Positions 1 through 7,075 of a DNA stretch of 64,000 bases are shown in pieces. A program made the translations under genes and the position numbers. A model generated the notes under the pieces. It did no database searches, had not been told where the DNA came from, and was given only the letters and a program-made list of their open reading frames with translations. This stretch comes from Magnetospirillum aberrantis SpK (lineage in GTDB: Bacteria; Pseudomonadota; Alphaproteobacteria; Rhodospirillales; Magnetospirillaceae), in contig NZ_JAAIYP010000034.1 in assembly GCF_011022235.1 (NCBI RefSeq), positions 186,001 to 250,000 of the forward strand. The letters are read 5' to 3'. Within the stretch, counting starts at the first letter, position 1. Each line of letters opens with the position of its first letter.

Positions 1-526
1 CGTCCGCGCGTTCTGCAAGCGTGACCTCAAGAAAACGGATCAACTCGCACAACATCACCTGCGTGGCGAGTCCCGGCGCTTCGGTCCCGCCGAGCTTCGC
101 CAACATTCTCTGCGAGGTAACCCAATCGAGAGGGCGCACATCCTGATCCGAGCCGACCCGAATGAACAGCAGAGCACCATGGGCCCGCCGCAATTCCTCC
201 ATCCAATCTGGTGCGATCTCGCAATCCAGCACGGCGTTGCGCCAGAGTTCACCCGAAATGTCAGGGACCACGATTGCCGTTTCCTGACCTCCCGCCTGAT
301 CAACGACGACGACTTCAAAGTCTCGGCGCTGGTCGGTGTGCTCCGAACGGGGAGCGAAGTTGCCTGAGTAGAGGTGGTCGGCAACCTCAAGAACAAACGT
401 GATGTCATCGGGCTGCTGCGCGGCCTTGAGTTGCCCACTGCCCGCATCTAGTGCAGTCCAGAGCCTACCGACATAGTTAGTCTTGCCCGAATCCGGACCG
501 CCGAGCAGTATTACCGAATGGGTCAT
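1..526 (-). CDS. P-loop GTPase-like protein, 3' end off the window (partial)
   Basis: The reading frame is open from an ATG at 526-524 to the left edge, giving 175 visible residues; the C terminus lies outside the window. A Walker A motif GGPDSGKT sits at residues 9-16 and a PDISGE motif at 88-93 is in the place of the switch II/Walker B region, followed by a hydrophobic strand (LLFIRV) near 118. This is the layout of a TRAFAC-type GTPase of the kind called DO-GTPase in predicted bacterial conflict systems. The start codon overlaps the stop of the upstream GTPase gene as ATGA, so the two are probably translationally coupled. The TKxD-type base-recognition motif is not visible here. The family is inferred from motifs; the biochemical role is unknown. 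Confidence 0.7.
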   Translation of the reverse strand, partial: MTHSVILLGGPDSGKTNYVGRLWTALDAGSGQLKAAQQPDDITFVLEVADHLYSGNFAPRSEHTDQRRDFEVVVVDQAGGQETAIVVPDISGELWRNAVLDCEIAPDWMEELRRAHGALLFIRVGSDQDVRPLDWVTSQRMLAKLGGTEAPGLATQVMLCELIRFLEVTLAERAD

Positions 527-1551
527 CGATCCCTCCTGAAGGCAATATAGGATCGTGAGCCCTCCTCGGGGGCACTGCTCGGCCAGAAATCAACTTCGCA
601 ACGCAACTGCTCCACGGTTGCTTCCATCAGCTCCGAGAGGCCGAAGCCGGCCCTCACATCGCCGCATTCCGAGAAGGGCGCGATTTGACAAATCCTCGCG
701 ACCACATCGCGTTTCGCTAGCTCTGCGGCAATCCGGGTCTCGATCGACTCACTCAGTTCGCCGTGGTCACGATGGGTGACGACGATCATCATGCGAGGGA
801 TCTCGCCATCAAAGATCGACTTGATCCTGCCCGCAAGTTGCCCCAACCGACTGATGACGCCTTGCCGCCGTTCCCTGTCCATCAGCGCTCGCCCATCGAC
901 AACCACCCATATCACCTCGGCCGATTTTAAGAAATCAAAGCGGTCGGCACGCGCCGAGCAAACAAGCTCCGTAGTCCACTCGCCAGGTAGGTCTGGAAGC
1001 GCAAAATCAACACGGCGACCATCGGCCTGCCTTAACAGGCGCAAGTGCAGGAACCCTGGACGGCGATCATCCGCCATCTCAGTGTGCACCGTCATCTGCT
1101 CCGGGGGTTCTCCCTCGTTCCATTCGCGGGCACCACGCGCGATCTCATCGAACCCGATCAGGCTTCGGCTGTCGGCGAAGGACCAGCCTTCGAGCTGTGC
1201 GTTGGAGACGAGGAGGTAGAGGCTCGCCAAACACGCAGTTTTGCCAGACTCGGGATCTCCAAGAATTCCCACAACGGTTACATACCGCGAGCCCATCATG
1301 CTGGAAACGAAATCGGGGCCCAGCGTTCGGCTCGACGGAAATGAAGCCGCTCCAGCCGGCTTCTCGAGAACCGGAGCGCCAGGATCATCCGTGGGCTCAG
1401 CTCGATCCGACTCGCTCTCGACCTCATCAGCACTGCCGATGGCCTTGTCCCCGGCGGCAACGTGATGTTTGCAGGTGGCGGGGTCGTGTTCCAGCGCACA
1501 CACACCGGTCTCGCCCACGGTGCAGCCATCGAAGGTGCAGGCGCGGCTCAT
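523..1551 (-). CDS. P-loop GTPase-like protein with N-terminal Cys/His cluster (DO-GTPase2-like)
   Basis: 342 residues from the ATG at 1551, which overlaps the TGA of the upstream gene (ATGA); a longer frame to 1617 would intrude into that gene. Residues 5-30 carry a cluster of four cysteines and two histidines (C5, C10, C18, C27, H29, H30) that could bind zinc. After a low-complexity linker, Walker A GDPESGKT is at 98-105, PDLPGE at 186-191, a hydrophobic strand VIWVVVDGR at 213-221 and THRD at 259-262 in the place of the NKxD guanine-recognition motif. The order matches a small GTPase fold. It is third in the four-gene operon and directly precedes a second P-loop protein, which suggests a paired-GTPase device. 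Function is inferred only from motifs and context. Confidence 0.7.
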   Translation of the reverse strand: MSRACTFDGCTVGETGVCALEHDPATCKHHVAAGDKAIGSADEVESESDRAEPTDDPGAPVLEKPAGAASFPSSRTLGPDFVSSMMGSRYVTVVGILGDPESGKTACLASLYLLVSNAQLEGWSFADSRSLIGFDEIARGAREWNEGEPPEQMTVHTEMADDRRPGFLHLRLLRQADGRRVDFALPDLPGEWTTELVCSARADRFDFLKSAEVIWVVVDGRALMDRERRQGVISRLGQLAGRIKSIFDGEIPRMMIVVTHRDHGELSESIETRIAAELAKRDVVARICQIAPFSECGDVRAGFGLSELMEATVEQLRCEVDFWPSSAPEEGSRSYIAFRRDR

Positions 1552-2573
1552 AGACGTCCCGGCCCTTTGGTAACGAGACGAGCCAGCGTGCACTCCACAA
1601 GCGCGCGACAACCCCATGTCGAGGCTTTCCGCTTCTCCTTCACCCCTTCACCGGAGAACAAACCCGTAAAAAGAGCGTTCAGCAATGGATAAACCGTTGG
1701 CGCAGACGTGACCGCTTCCGGAATCCACCCGATAAGTGCATCGCGATCTTGCCCGATCACTTCGACAAGCTCCCGAAGATCGAGCTCGGGGTCTGCGTCG
1801 ACGGTACGCAGGACGATTTCACGATGGACGTCGGCGGGCAGGCGACGAAGCAGGTTCGCAGCCTCAATACCCATCGTCACCAAACGTGTCGCTTCAGGAA
1901 TATCAGACAGTGGCCGACCGAGTACACGACTCCGGCCCAGTTGGGCCCACCAGAGGACGTCGAGTTCTTCTCGATCGAGCGCAGCATTGCGTCGCAACGG
2001 ATCGACAATCTCAGCGACGATTTCCTTGAAGTCCGACGTAGCCTTCCTCTCGCTATCGACGGTAATCTCTAGATCTTGAACCTCCGGTACCGGTTCGCGC
2101 TCGCGTGCTCTGTTAGCGCTTTCGAGGCTGCGTTCTCTAGCGCGCTCGAGCACTTCACGGCGGAGCGCCTCCCTTTTCTCCTCGGGAAGTGCCGGCTGGA
2201 ATGCAAGCGAAAGCCACAGCGCATTTGAATAGATATCCGCTCTCGTCCAGCCCCCGGTCCCAGGCTTTTCCTCGATCACGGACAGCGCGGCCATGCCCGC
2301 ACAGACCCCGACCTCCAAGGGGCGCTCAGAGCTCAGAAATGCGGAAGCGTGCTTCTGCACCGCATCCTCAATCTCTTCCGCAAGACTCTCAGGCGGCGTA
2401 CCGTCTCCGCCCAGTGAATCCGCAATTTCCGCTGCCTTGGCGATGATTTGGGGGCTATTGTCAATCTTACCCCAAGCGGCTGCGAGCTGCTTAACCGCCT
2501 TCTGCCGCGAGTCCACGTCCTCGTTGCTCGGCGAAAGACCGCTGATCCGCATGTGAACCGAAAGCCTACTCAT
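1548..2573 (-). CDS. all-helical GTPase-associated protein (GASH-like)
   Basis: 341 residues, predicted almost entirely helical, with no catalytic motif, signal peptide or membrane segment. Residues 40-100 form a helical region rich in small residues and 130-200 are charged. Around 204-240 there is a pattern (ELDVLWW, then GRPLSDIPEAT) that I associate with the GASH family (GTPase-associated system helical domain). The gene sits between the metallophosphoesterase and the first GTPase, joined to the former by TGATG and to the latter by ATGA. In described conflict systems such helical proteins accompany paired GTPases and may act as adaptor or scaffold. The family call comes from memory of the pattern and needs a profile search. 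Confidence 0.55.
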   Translation of the reverse strand: MSRLSVHMRISGLSPSNEDVDSRQKAVKQLAAAWGKIDNSPQIIAKAAEIADSLGGDGTPPESLAEEIEDAVQKHASAFLSSERPLEVGVCAGMAALSVIEEKPGTGGWTRADIYSNALWLSLAFQPALPEEKREALRREVLERARERSLESANRAREREPVPEVQDLEITVDSERKATSDFKEIVAEIVDPLRRNAALDREELDVLWWAQLGRSRVLGRPLSDIPEATRLVTMGIEAANLLRRLPADVHREIVLRTVDADPELDLRELVEVIGQDRDALIGWIPEAVTSAPTVYPLLNALFTGLFSGEGVKEKRKASTWGCRALVECTLARLVTKGPGRL

Positions 2574-3928
2574 CAGTTCTGCCCCCCGTCTCGTTCTTCG
2601 ATCAGCTTATCGATCATCCGGTCTAACTCAAGAAGTCTGCCCTCGCGCGCGAGCCAATCGAATAGCTTGCGCTCAACCCCCTGGGTCATCCGTTCGTCGG
2701 AGTCCGCCGGGATCGCGTTGAGTTCCACAAGTATGCGGAGTCTTTCATTTTCCAGTAGATCGCGGAAGAAACGCAACAGCGTGAGCTCGTAGCCTTCAAT
2801 GGGCGGTGGCATGGGCGGCGTCTCCTCGGCAATTTCCTTGGCGACAAACTCCACAACCTGCTGATCCGACTCTTCATCCCTCACAGGGGCACGTTCTCCT
2901 GCGGCCAAACCGTTCTCGTTCCGCTGCGTGCACTTCCTGAAGTTGGGCGAACCCAGCACGAAGCGAGGCTGGCTTCCACCGAGACGTTTGGTGTCGGCCT
3001 CAAAGCGTGTCTGTTTAGGGTTCCAGGCCCGGGGATGCATCGTGACCGCGAGGGCATCGGCTTCCTCGTCCCAGTCGAACTCGATGATGTTGTATGTGTA
3101 GGTGTAAGCCTCGTTCGACTTAAATGGGACGGCGGCGCCTGCGGCGACCATCATGACGTCACACCTATCGTCGACCGGATCTATCGTGACCTTGGGATCA
3201 TGCTCGTGCCCGGAGATGAACACGCGCGCACGGTTACGCACATATTGCCGGACCTCGTCTGCATCCCTGTACCAGTTTAGGGGGTGGTGGACGAGGAGGA
3301 CGTTCTCCTCGCCAGTATTCCGTGGAATGGTAAATTGCCGCGCACCGATCATGAGTTCAGGGGCGTCATCCCGCTCTTTCCCATGGCAGAGTAGAGCCGA
3401 ATTCATGCGAATGAAGCGGATCCATCGGCCGGGCGCCAACTCGATTCGACGGTTTGTGGCAAAGCGCGCTTCGTCGTCGAGCGCGCAATCATATCCGCAA
3501 GAGAAACGCCCATAATCTTCGAAGCGGGCAAGGAGCGAGGCCCGGTCCGCCGGGTTGTTCACCACCCTCTCATACTCAGCAGCGCCGCCCGCGCGAATGT
3601 AGTCGAGCAATTGAGAGCCACCGACCGAAAGCTTGTCCCGGTCCACGTCGTGGTTGCCAGGTACCATTTGCACCATATGGATCGGGCAGCCGATGCTTCG
3701 CGCCAGTTCATCGAGCCAGCGGCCAGCGTCATCGTACTGCGCCCGCTTGCCCGAATAAGCAATATCCCCGGTAACTAATATCCCCTGAGCCACGCGGCCC
3801 GGAAGGTTACCAACGACCTCAGCCGCATCCGCGATCAATTGCTGTTTGACGTCATCATGGATGTGGACGGTGTCGTCACGTTCCTGGCCGAAATGGATAT
3901 CAGAAAGATGGACAAAGGCTGCTGACAT
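2573..3928 (-). CDS. calcineurin-like metallophosphoesterase with C-terminal EAD/Death-like domain
   Basis: 451 residues. The metal-binding motifs of calcineurin-type phosphoesterases appear in order: DIH at 10-12, GDIAYSG at 54-60, GNHD at 91-94, HHP at 214-216 and GHEHD at 240-244, so the catalytic domain (about 1-300) should be active. After a linker rich in Glu and Pro, residues 380-445 form a compact helical domain ending in LFDWLAREGRLLELDRMI, which resembles effector-associated or bacterial Death-like adaptor domains. The gene is first in the operon, and a 17-bp palindrome lies 30 bp upstream of its start. The substrate cannot be read from sequence; nucleotides, nucleic acids or phosphoproteins are all possible. 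The phosphoesterase fold is secure; the C-terminal domain call is tentative. Confidence 0.85.
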   Translation of the reverse strand: MSAAFVHLSDIHFGQERDDTVHIHDDVKQQLIADAAEVVGNLPGRVAQGILVTGDIAYSGKRAQYDDAGRWLDELARSIGCPIHMVQMVPGNHDVDRDKLSVGGSQLLDYIRAGGAAEYERVVNNPADRASLLARFEDYGRFSCGYDCALDDEARFATNRRIELAPGRWIRFIRMNSALLCHGKERDDAPELMIGARQFTIPRNTGEENVLLVHHPLNWYRDADEVRQYVRNRARVFISGHEHDPKVTIDPVDDRCDVMMVAAGAAVPFKSNEAYTYTYNIIEFDWDEEADALAVTMHPRAWNPKQTRFEADTKRLGGSQPRFVLGSPNFRKCTQRNENGLAAGERAPVRDEESDQQVVEFVAKEIAEETPPMPPPIEGYELTLLRFFRDLLENERLRILVELNAIPADSDERMTQGVERKLFDWLAREGRLLELDRMIDKLIEERDGGQN

Positions 3929-4248: not shown

Positions 4249-5664
4249 TCAGTCCGGATTGAAGGGTGAAAATCCCTCCGCATAAGCAGCGAGAAGATCA
4301 AGAGCATTCCGCTGCCTTATACGGAATTTCACTCCGCTCAATATCGGAGATGCGCCAAGCTCTGCCTCCATTAACGATTTGCATAAATTATACAGTTTTT
4401 TGCTGTGTTCGTTTGATCCTGAGAGCCCCTTTAAGTACCCGAGCATGCTCTCAAACATAATGTTTTCTTGCACTTCCTCTGTGGCGTCCTCGCCCGCAGG
4501 AAACCAAAGCTCATTTTCAGGCTCAGAACCTACAGCAATACGCCGCAGAATCCATGAATAAATATATTGTTTTGTGTACAATTTGGGGTCTGTTTTTGCA
4601 TCTTCGTAGAGCCTGTATTTCGCATCCATTAGGCCACCGTCACCTTCAAGCCAGACTGCGTCAGGTCGCATCGGACTAAACATCTGCTCTAACTCTTCGT
4701 GGCGACGGTGACTGGCAATTTGCATTGCACGAGCCCTCGTAAGGTTCGCAGTATCCGCCAAAGCAACTCTGCGGCCTTCCCGGATTAGCCCCTCGATGCA
4801 GGCCGCTTCCCAAACGCAGGAAAATCCGGCAATACCCCACGCTTCCTTGGTATCTGCTACAGATACACCGTTTAGAAAATGGTCTGCAGCTTCATAGAAA
4901 TCTAGATACACGTCATCCCTTATAGAGTGTGCATCAATGCGCTCAAGGTGGTCACAGAGTGTTTCTCGCGTCTCACGCCATTGTTCTATTTTGAATAAGC
5001 TAGCGTCTGACGAAAGATGATCGGATCTATACTCTTGTGAAAGTGCAGATACAACTTCAGTGCACTCCCACCCCATTTGGTTGGAAATTTCATATGCAAT
5101 GAAGCAGCACATCCGAACCAAGTCTGATGGGCATTCCCCAGGAAGCGTTCTCCGAGTGAGGAAATCCTGGTCAACGATTGCCGTGCCGTCCTCTAGGAAA
5201 TTTGCTCTGTGAAGGTTGCGATGGAAGCCCCCCCAGTCCACTGCGTCTTTTCTGCCCGCCCGCTCAACCAGCTGGAGTAAATATGGCTCTTCCTGCAGAT
5301 TAAGAACTCCCCAAAGGCGGTCGAGCGCCGAAAACATTACGCTGGGGGCGTCACCTTTCTGTTTAATTGCGTTAAATTCCGAACGGCCATGTTGCTTATT
5401 TTGCCGAGCGAGGAAGTCCTGGAGGACACTTCCTTTCATGGAACTTCCGGTGCGCGCAAAGGCTCTTAGGGCTGAATATAGAATAAAATATACAGACTTG
5501 ACGCGCTCGTACCGTTCCTCGGCGGGCAAACCATTAATCGTATCCAGAATGCTCTCGAAACCGAGAGGCATGCGAAGAGTAGGCGTGCCATTGCGCAACA
5601 GCAGCCCAACGAAGGCAGATTTTCCATCGGCCATTTCCAGAGTAAGTGATGAAAAATCAATCAT
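4249..5664 (-). CDS. LlaJI-like PD-(D/E)xK restriction endonuclease subunit
   Basis: 471 residues, encoded downstream of and overlapping the McrB-like ATPase gene by 8 bp. A PD-(D/E)xK nuclease core is readable as PD at 334-335 and DAK at 347-349, preceded by a VWE motif at 284-286, which I associate with the LlaJI/McrC-type partner nucleases of GTP-dependent restriction systems. The N-terminal 280 residues are mostly helical and unassigned. Together with the ATPase it would form a two-component restriction system that recognises DNA through the ATPase partner. No methyltransferase gene is nearby, which favours a modification-dependent (type IV-like) mode, though this is inference. Codon use is clearly more AT-rich than in the core genes, consistent with horizontal transfer. 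Confidence 0.65.
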   Translation of the reverse strand: MIDFSSLTLEMADGKSAFVGLLLRNGTPTLRMPLGFESILDTINGLPAEERYERVKSVYFILYSALRAFARTGSSMKGSVLQDFLARQNKQHGRSEFNAIKQKGDAPSVMFSALDRLWGVLNLQEEPYLLQLVERAGRKDAVDWGGFHRNLHRANFLEDGTAIVDQDFLTRRTLPGECPSDLVRMCCFIAYEISNQMGWECTEVVSALSQEYRSDHLSSDASLFKIEQWRETRETLCDHLERIDAHSIRDDVYLDFYEAADHFLNGVSVADTKEAWGIAGFSCVWEAACIEGLIREGRRVALADTANLTRARAMQIASHRRHEELEQMFSPMRPDAVWLEGDGGLMDAKYRLYEDAKTDPKLYTKQYIYSWILRRIAVGSEPENELWFPAGEDATEEVQENIMFESMLGYLKGLSGSNEHSKKLYNLCKSLMEAELGASPILSGVKFRIRQRNALDLLAAYAEGFSPFNPD

Positions 5665-7075
5665 CTGGTGTCAGCGCCGCCGACCGAAAATCCCAGAGCA
5701 TGATCATAAAACGATCCAGGTGGTCACTGAGATCTGCAAAGGTACGCAAGCTGACGCCCATTGCATCTGCTAGCAAAGACCGGTGACGAGGAAATACGGT
5801 ATCCCACAGAAAAAACAGCAACTTATTACGGATTTTGCTCGCAGGTATGGCAACGGCGTCATTCACCACCTCAGGGCGGATGAAGCGGTAGCCGATTTGC
5901 TTATCCTCGATATGCCTGATGCTCTCCGAGTGAGAAAGAATGAAGGAGTTTACTGCATCGACAAAATCCACCCACTTCCAAGCTGCAGACAGTGCGGGCT
6001 CCACATCGTCAAAAATTTGCACATTGACTAAGTCTCCGGCTCGTCCTCGGGTGCCCGCGGCCAGGTATTCCCATTCCCAGCGCCGCTTGAACGCGCTATC
6101 CATATAATAAATCGAATCATCAGATGTATTCATCGTGGCAAATATGGAGAGATTACGAGGGATTACAATTTCACCAGACCGCATCAACTCCAGTAGGTGC
6201 CGCCCTTCCGCCGTCGAAGCTTGATCTATGTCGGAAATTTCAGCCTGTTCCCTTAGGGCCATAAGTTCCATCTCCGGCAGATGGATGCGATAGCTTGAGC
6301 GCCCCCGTGTATCCCGGTCTAACAACTGAAAGATTGAACCGAAAATCGAGGCGCAGTTTCCCCGGTTCAGTTCATCGATCACCAGCGCTACGTTGCGGAC
6401 CACTCCTGCGGGTACCAGGATTGCCTCGCGATAGGCCTTCGCTAAAGCCAGCAAAAAATGGCCTGGGTAGAATCTATAGGTAACAGTGGACCTTCCGGGG
6501 CTATTCAGATCCGGCACGCTGAGTGGCAACAGCTTTCCTACGAAATCGCCATAGGTGTACTCGGGATGAAAGATGGTTTGGACGACGCATTCGCGCTCAA
6601 TACGCAACTTGTTGAGATAAGTGCTGCGGAGAATGTGGCTCTTGCCAGTACCCGGCGGACCGAAAATGATCAATTGTTCAGGGAGCATGGACGCGGCCGC
6701 TTCCAGTTGGGTCTGCAATTCATCTGCTCGCCACCGAATGGTGCACGCCAACCTGCCACGCCCATCCAATTGGCTAAGGATGGCTGCTCGGATGGCGTTC
6801 AGTTGGTTCTGTTCAACCCGCCGCCGCTCATTTTCGCGCCGCGCGCTGTCCAGAGCTTCTTCTAGCGGGTTAGCAGACGCACCTTCTGAACTACCAATAT
6901 CACCCGCGTTTGTTGCAGATGAAAACGTCCGTTTTTTACGCACGTCTACCGTAACGACCTTTGAGCGTCCGTGACTAAAACTTTGGCGAACCTGCCCGGC
7001 TTCAACGGTTTTTTTAAGCTCAAGCTTGCCTGGCTGCGAAAGCTTTAGAGGCGCTTTTCTTTCTTGATCGCTCAT
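5657..7075 (-). CDS. McrB-type AAA+ NTPase with IF-2-like N-terminal segment
   Basis: 472 residues. The AAA+ core carries Walker A GPPGTGKS at 139-146, Walker B VIDELNRGN at 232-240 with the McrB-type NR pair, MNTSD at 315-319 and RRW at 331-333, all typical of the McrB GTPase subfamily that drives a partner nuclease. The N terminus is unusual: residues 9-50 (including KKTVEAGQVRQSFSHGRSK) read like the conserved N-terminal segment of alphaproteobacterial translation initiation factor IF-2. Residues 70-90 (LEEALDSARRENERRR) resemble the charged helix that follows it there. No DNA-recognition domain of usual McrB type is obvious in front of the core. The codons of the IF-2-like part are as AT-rich as the rest of the gene. 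The ATPase assignment is strong; the role of the N terminus is unknown. Confidence 0.8.
   Translation of the reverse strand: MSDQERKAPLKLSQPGKLELKKTVEAGQVRQSFSHGRSKVVTVDVRKKRTFSSATNAGDIGSSEGASANPLEEALDSARRENERRRVEQNQLNAIRAAILSQLDGRGRLACTIRWRADELQTQLEAAASMLPEQLIIFGPPGTGKSHILRSTYLNKLRIERECVVQTIFHPEYTYGDFVGKLLPLSVPDLNSPGRSTVTYRFYPGHFLLALAKAYREAILVPAGVVRNVALVIDELNRGNCASIFGSIFQLLDRDTRGRSSYRIHLPEMELMALREQAEISDIDQASTAEGRHLLELMRSGEIVIPRNLSIFATMNTSDDSIYYMDSAFKRRWEWEYLAAGTRGRAGDLVNVQIFDDVEPALSAAWKWVDFVDAVNSFILSHSESIRHIEDKQIGYRFIRPEVVNDAVAIPASKIRNKLLFFLWDTVFPRHRSLLADAMGVSLRTFADLSDHLDRFMIMLWDFRSAALTPDD

Follow-up and report, generated by a model that had tools for sequence, protein, structure and literature searches.

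Our question was why a McrB-type restriction protein of Magnetospirillum aberrantis SpK begins with a peptide that reads like the N-terminus of translation initiation factor IF2 (InfB). The N-terminal slot of McrB-type proteins decides what the enzyme attacks, and passages of PMC7680126 describe McrB homologues that fill it with DNA readers (DUF3578, YTH and, in LlaJI, B3). We find that the fusion is real and that its tail is of InfB ancestry. Our tentative answer, to which we give a probability of about 0.42, is that the tail occupies the targeting slot as a docking peptide, most likely for NusA on transcribing RNA polymerase, a reading we favour over a ribosome tether, a decoy and a fortuitous leader.

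A McrB-type GTPase and its nuclease partner

The gene occupies positions 7075-5657 on the minus strand of the window (the whole 64,000-nucleotide stretch analysed), encodes 472 amino acids and heads a run of minus-strand genes; the earlier note had placed it correctly at 5657-7075, and we add the strand. An InfB-derived tail (residues 1-57, positions 6905-7075) contains the Pfam family IF2_assoc (PF08364; residues 15-51, positions 6923-7033). It is followed by a linker in which two long helices are predicted (at residues 70-103 and 107-128, the block spanning positions 6683-6904) and by a McrB-type AAA+ core (residues 132-472, positions 5657-6682), all on the minus strand. In the AlphaFold2 model, pLDDT is below 50 across residues 1-65 and no structure is given for the tail, whose rows in the input alignment included no InfB. 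The helical block is modelled with pLDDT values of 90-92 at residues 71-90 and 62-84 at residues 91-130, and we predict that the two helices form a stalk joining the tail to the AAA+ core.

Pfam AAA_5 covers residues 135-332 of the core, in which Walker A (GPPGTGKS, residues 139-146), Walker B (DE, 234-235), an NxxD motif (NTSD, 316-319) and a pair of arginines (331-332) are intact. Nearly all Walker A/B and NxxD columns are invariant and the two arginines are conserved in an alignment of 28 sequences (this protein and 27 relatives picked from 71 of suitable length). The core matches solved McrB by phmmer (E 9.5e-12) and McrB structures by Foldseek (6ut5, E 2.4e-11; 6hz4, E 3.8e-10), its top Foldseek match being 9a5m chain B (E 5.8e-19). 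The fold and motifs are thus those of a standard McrB AAA+ core, as the earlier note had stated; given the McrB NxxD signature, the core is more likely a GTPase than the ATPase named there. In a tree of the relatives' cores the protein forms a long branch (node support 0.318), its nearest relative by tree distance comes from Skermanella (L079), and no donor is inferred. Upstream of that Skermanella GTPase lies a nucleotidyltransferase-domain protein (NTP_transf_2, L079:2863-3411).

The second gene (minus strand, positions 4249-5664, 471 amino acids) overlaps the GTPase gene by 8 bp. Its product has no Pfam match at all (E ≤ 10) and carries the nuclease motifs PD (334-335), DAK (347-349) and Q366; D347, K349 and Q366 do not vary among 24 nuclease sequences, PD being only the majority consensus. 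The nuclease model matches the fold of 9a5m chain A (Z 13.1) and of McrC (6ut7_G, Z 9.3), and at no fewer than 60 of 80 loci (the best 80 of 125 relatives) a related open reading frame lies downstream of the GTPase. These features suggest a two-gene restriction-type module, consisting of a McrB-like GTPase and a PD-(D/E)xK nuclease, with a putative role in defence.

The same gene order, with a McrB-type AAA+ protein ahead of a nuclease, is found in LlaJI.R1/R2 of pNP40 and in YdiS/YdjA, which we take to be the BsuMI pair. In the integrative model 9a5m, titled YdjA-YdiS, our GTPase resembles chain B and our nuclease chain A, the assignment of chains to proteins being presumed. The pNP40 AAA protein shares 33% identity with our GTPase over 66% of the query. 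LlaJI of pNP40 has two cytosine methyltransferases, whereas none was found here in the neighbours scanned (six beyond the nuclease gene and one beyond the GTPase gene), and its nuclease matches RE_LlaJI (PF09563) at E 3.8e-31, whereas ours has no RE_LlaJI match (E ≤ 10). In contrast to LlaJI and BsuMI, the protein has no recognised DNA-binding N-terminal domain. With type IV McrBC (E. coli, Thermococcus) the pair shares Walker A/B, NxxD, the fold and a nuclease partner, but the IF2 peptide stands in place of the targeting domain at the N-terminus (DUF3578, YTH or the B3 of LlaJI): Pfam (E ≤ 10) finds no domain recognising modified DNA, and IF2_assoc sits in that position.

InfB ancestry and codon rewriting of the tail

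The earlier note had read the N-terminal segment as InfB-like, and this is borne out: IF2_assoc matches residues 15-51 with E 1.4e-12 and 48.1 bits (gathering cut-off 24). In the same genome, IF2_assoc occurs at E ≤ 0.001 in two places only, this gene and infB, which lies downstream of nusA on another contig and is cut by the contig end, restricting comparison to its start. We compared an ungapped 44-residue core (APLKL...KKRTF) with 41 infB starts (the resident gene and 40 relatives). The core is identical to the resident InfB at 42 of 44 positions and to InfB of two congeners (G001 and G010) at 43 of 44, and only these three of the 41 InfB share the alanine in its VEAGQ motif. The likeness spans the first ∼54 residues of the protein, which open as InfB does (MSD...QERK); the GTPase and C-terminal domains that belong to IF2 are absent (Pfam, E ≤ 10).

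At the DNA level the picture is different. Against infB of the resident genome, G001 and G010, 11-15 of the 44 codons are identical, 28-32 show synonymous differences, and 1-2 encode another residue. An equal number of random changes would alter ∼20-22 residues, with a minimum of 13 (2000 trials per comparison). GC at third positions (GC3) reaches 0.48 in these 44 codons, compared with 0.91 for the resident infB and 0.91-0.95 across the three genes, confirming the AT-rich codons pointed out earlier. By blastn, 99 of 134 bases of the tail DNA are identical to the resident infB. The number of identical codons is close to that expected from codon usage in the two genes of the island (13 seen and 13.1 expected for the resident infB, 15 and 13.7 for G010, 11 and 13.4 for G001). 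Synonymous divergence between the tail and its five closest InfB is 0.65-0.74; among the infB pairs that differ at no more than two residues (158 of 820) it never exceeds 0.55.

The residues have thus been kept despite saturated synonymous change, which points to constraint on the protein rather than the RNA and rules out conservation of a leader or regulatory RNA. Likewise, the rewritten codons and the GC3 gap argue against both a chimeric assembly and a recent copy of the resident infB; the tail differs from the resident infB start at 35 of 132 bases and the gene lies inside a contig of 371,582 bases, ruling out misassembly, in agreement with the earlier assessment. Part of the codon rewriting may predate the fusion, having occurred inside a mid-GC donor infB beyond our sample.

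The similarity claimed for the next charged helix fares less well. When residues 52-132 were compared with eight InfB, shuffling gave p ≤ 0.02 for three of them (G001, 0.02; G048, 0.004; G037, 0.002) and p 0.18-0.74 for five (resident InfB, 0.38; G010, 0.74; the others, 0.25, 0.18 and 0.72), all values uncorrected for eight tests. Homology of the stalk region to InfB is mixed and unconvincing, being absent for the resident InfB and G010, and we set aside a longer InfB capture.

A single fusion in a modular slot

We searched 697 genomes (G000-G696), 99 of them with the whole protein, 385 with the IF2_assoc family and 317 with the tail, the sets overlapping. Among the matches listed, every second IF2_assoc match is infB except this gene; no match at all was obtained in 95 of 385 genomes by the family search and in 24 of 317 by the tail search. 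Tracing covered the genomes with two tail matches, those with a single match not being inspected individually. Several candidates for a second fusion were rejected: G404 has two full-length infB frames; in G001 and G525 an infB is split at contig ends, which accounts for the short match of the former and the first match of the latter; in G551 the second match is an almost identical infB start with a reading frame open to the locus end; and the second whole-protein matches in G045 and G082 concern the GTPase core, not the tail.

A search of the genome_contigs collection with the core as a single protein gave no match, and a search with a core alignment (A1) returned 125 relatives, of which the best 80 were fetched. 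A six-frame scan found IF2_assoc in none of 86 loci (these 80 and six more; best other E 0.13), so the hunt for the same fusion in other McrB loci, suggested in the earlier note, ended without a second case. The fusion was not found in viral contigs either, and the tail alone has no match in plasmid or phage collections. In the papers searched we likewise found no described McrB-IF2 or McrB-NusA fusion, as the earlier note had supposed, nor any naming of IF2_assoc or PF08364; the CoCoNuT census (PMC11090510) mentions neither 'initiation factor' nor 'LlaJI'. The fusion, which those papers do not describe, sits on an otherwise ordinary McrB-type pair and is a single instance (n = 1).

The relatives nevertheless reveal what the slot can hold. 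In 65 of 80 loci (the best 80 of 125 relatives), no more than 40 residues separate the first ATG from the P-loop; the frames of two of these 65 (L092 and L130) are interrupted or misplaced. Ten of the 15 loci with longer starts were scanned: three carry Mrr_N, six leucine-rich repeats (L080 carries both), and in two nothing was recognised. The N-terminal slot of this subfamily is modular and swappable, which sits well with the earlier idea of a captured domain reused for targeting. The relatives with leucine-rich repeats (L080, L090, L096, L107, L124 and L146) come from Methylococcales and other proteobacterial metagenome-assembled genomes, and add a further unusual occupant of the targeting slot.

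The short starts of most relatives and the single occurrence in 697 genomes (among the matches listed) are also what one would expect if the tail were a mere translated leader, created when the infB 5′ end of an unsampled, AT-richer relative landed on a core-only McrB gene. Both island genes are indeed AT-richer (GC 0.52 for the GTPase and 0.49 for the nuclease gene, against 0.62 for the 64-kb window), and the InfB-like opening and very low pLDDT of the tail would fit as well. We consider such an accident somewhat unlikely. The VEAGQ alanine is confined, among the 41 InfB, to three whose GC3 is 0.91-0.95, whereas the sole InfB with GC3 below 0.6 (G023, from a 0.9-Mb genome) matches only 30 of 44 positions; moreover, a useless tail, if old, should have lost its 43/44 identity.

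Possible docking partners of the tail

If the tail is kept for binding, the partners of the IF2 N-terminus itself become the obvious candidates. In E. coli, pull-down of NusA requires IF2 Domain I, which also suffices for it, and an AlphaFold3 model places IF2 N1 (residues 1-50) and two strands (residues 57-90) on NusA KH2/AR1, supported by IF2-NusA cross-links at 13, 50 and 88 (passages of PMC12297416). The same passages report that removal of the C-terminal part of NusA nearly abolishes a slow, nucleoid-associated state of Domain I, and that, according to the authors, neither the IF2 N-terminus nor the NusA C-terminus is conserved. Our tail aligns with E. coli IF2 residues 52-92, which overlap this NusA-binding stretch, a weak match at the level of single sequences (E 0.1); the E. 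coli interface also involves IF2 residues 1-50, whose counterpart is missing from the tail.

The resident NusA has the Pfam S1 and KH domains and two C-terminal HHH_5 stretches, and passes the NusA-repeat model TIGR01954 in two stretches (107 bits against a cut-off of 48); E. coli NusA likewise passes in two stretches (136 bits). Among 14 control genomes, those of E. coli and Caulobacter have IF2_assoc above its cut-off; in a set of six control genomes that includes both species, two pass TIGR01954. Across 385 genomes of the class, IF2_assoc is missing in 21 of the 22 without the NusA repeat versus 74 of the 363 with it, a cross-tabulation confounded by phylogeny, neighbouring genes, small fast-evolving genomes and incomplete assemblies. 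The coincident absence of the NusA repeat and IF2_assoc is suggestive only.

For the NusA tether we propose the following mechanism. The GTPase would form a hexamer, and several flexible IF2 tails would therefore jut from the ring on their helical stalks. The tails would bind partners of IF2's own N-terminus, most likely NusA KH2/AR1, and the motor and its nuclease would thereby concentrate on expressed DNA (or nascent RNA). A phage factor competing for the same NusA surface might then be the cue for cutting foreign rather than host DNA. Lambda N binds NusA AR1 (as stated in part of PMC7171158) and could, speculatively, be such a trigger. A full scheme of transcription-coupled restriction, in which phage antiterminators that take NusA AR1 would release or activate a NusA-parked enzyme, seems to us unlikely. 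Should the slot be able to hold a docking peptide for host machinery, the site of transcription, and not a DNA sequence or modification, could steer restriction. The fusion would in addition lend independent support to the poorly understood IF2_assoc segment as a portable interaction module, and would provide a compact tool for probing the recently reported IF2-NusA contact.

IF2 itself binds ribosomes, and the tail could instead tether the enzyme to the 30S subunit, to initiation complexes or to IF2-RNA condensates, where it would attack or sense translation much as is predicted for CoCoNuT systems. Parts of a 2026 preprint (PMC13345285) describe stabilisation of the 30S pre-initiation complex by the N-terminal domains of IF2, and passages of PMC11838494 report that the disordered N-terminal region of IF2 from E. 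coli and C. crescentus (∼350 residues in the latter) phase-separates with RNA. CoCoNuTs likewise join a McrB-type GTPase to part of the translation apparatus, their McrB relatives bearing domains predicted to touch translation components (portions of PMC11090510). Their motif, however, is NxD where ours is NxxD (NTSD), and Pfam finds no OB, YTH or Hsp70 domain in our GTPase or nuclease. Since Domain I of E. coli IF2 is a NusA binder whose slow, nucleoid-like state was considered incompatible with binding to maturing ribosomes (passages of PMC12297416), we regard a ribosome tether as quite improbable. The earlier suggestion of a tether to the translation machinery thus comes near to the reading we favour, but the literature on the IF2 N-terminus points to NusA and not to the ribosome. 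Least probable is that the tail mimics IF2 to draw a phage factor that binds, modifies or cleaves the IF2 N-terminus and so triggers the enzyme: the near residue-for-residue mimicry of the host, retained at the protein level, is what a decoy would need, but a non-exhaustive literature search found no phage factor acting on this segment.

Scans for promoters and terminators gave results at or below chance, and around the island neither tRNAs nor repeats of at least 16 bases were found. One flank of the pair is a glycosyltransferase-family-20 gene (trehalose-phosphate synthase-type). Beyond the nuclease gene, next to the pair, lies a complete-looking GAP1-N1-type GTPase-centric conflict system (window positions 1-3928, minus strand, and L004:3052-6527) made up of a metallophosphoesterase-GAAD effector, GASH, DO-GTPase2, DO-GTPase1 and GAP1-N1; systems of this type are described in passages of PMC7159879.
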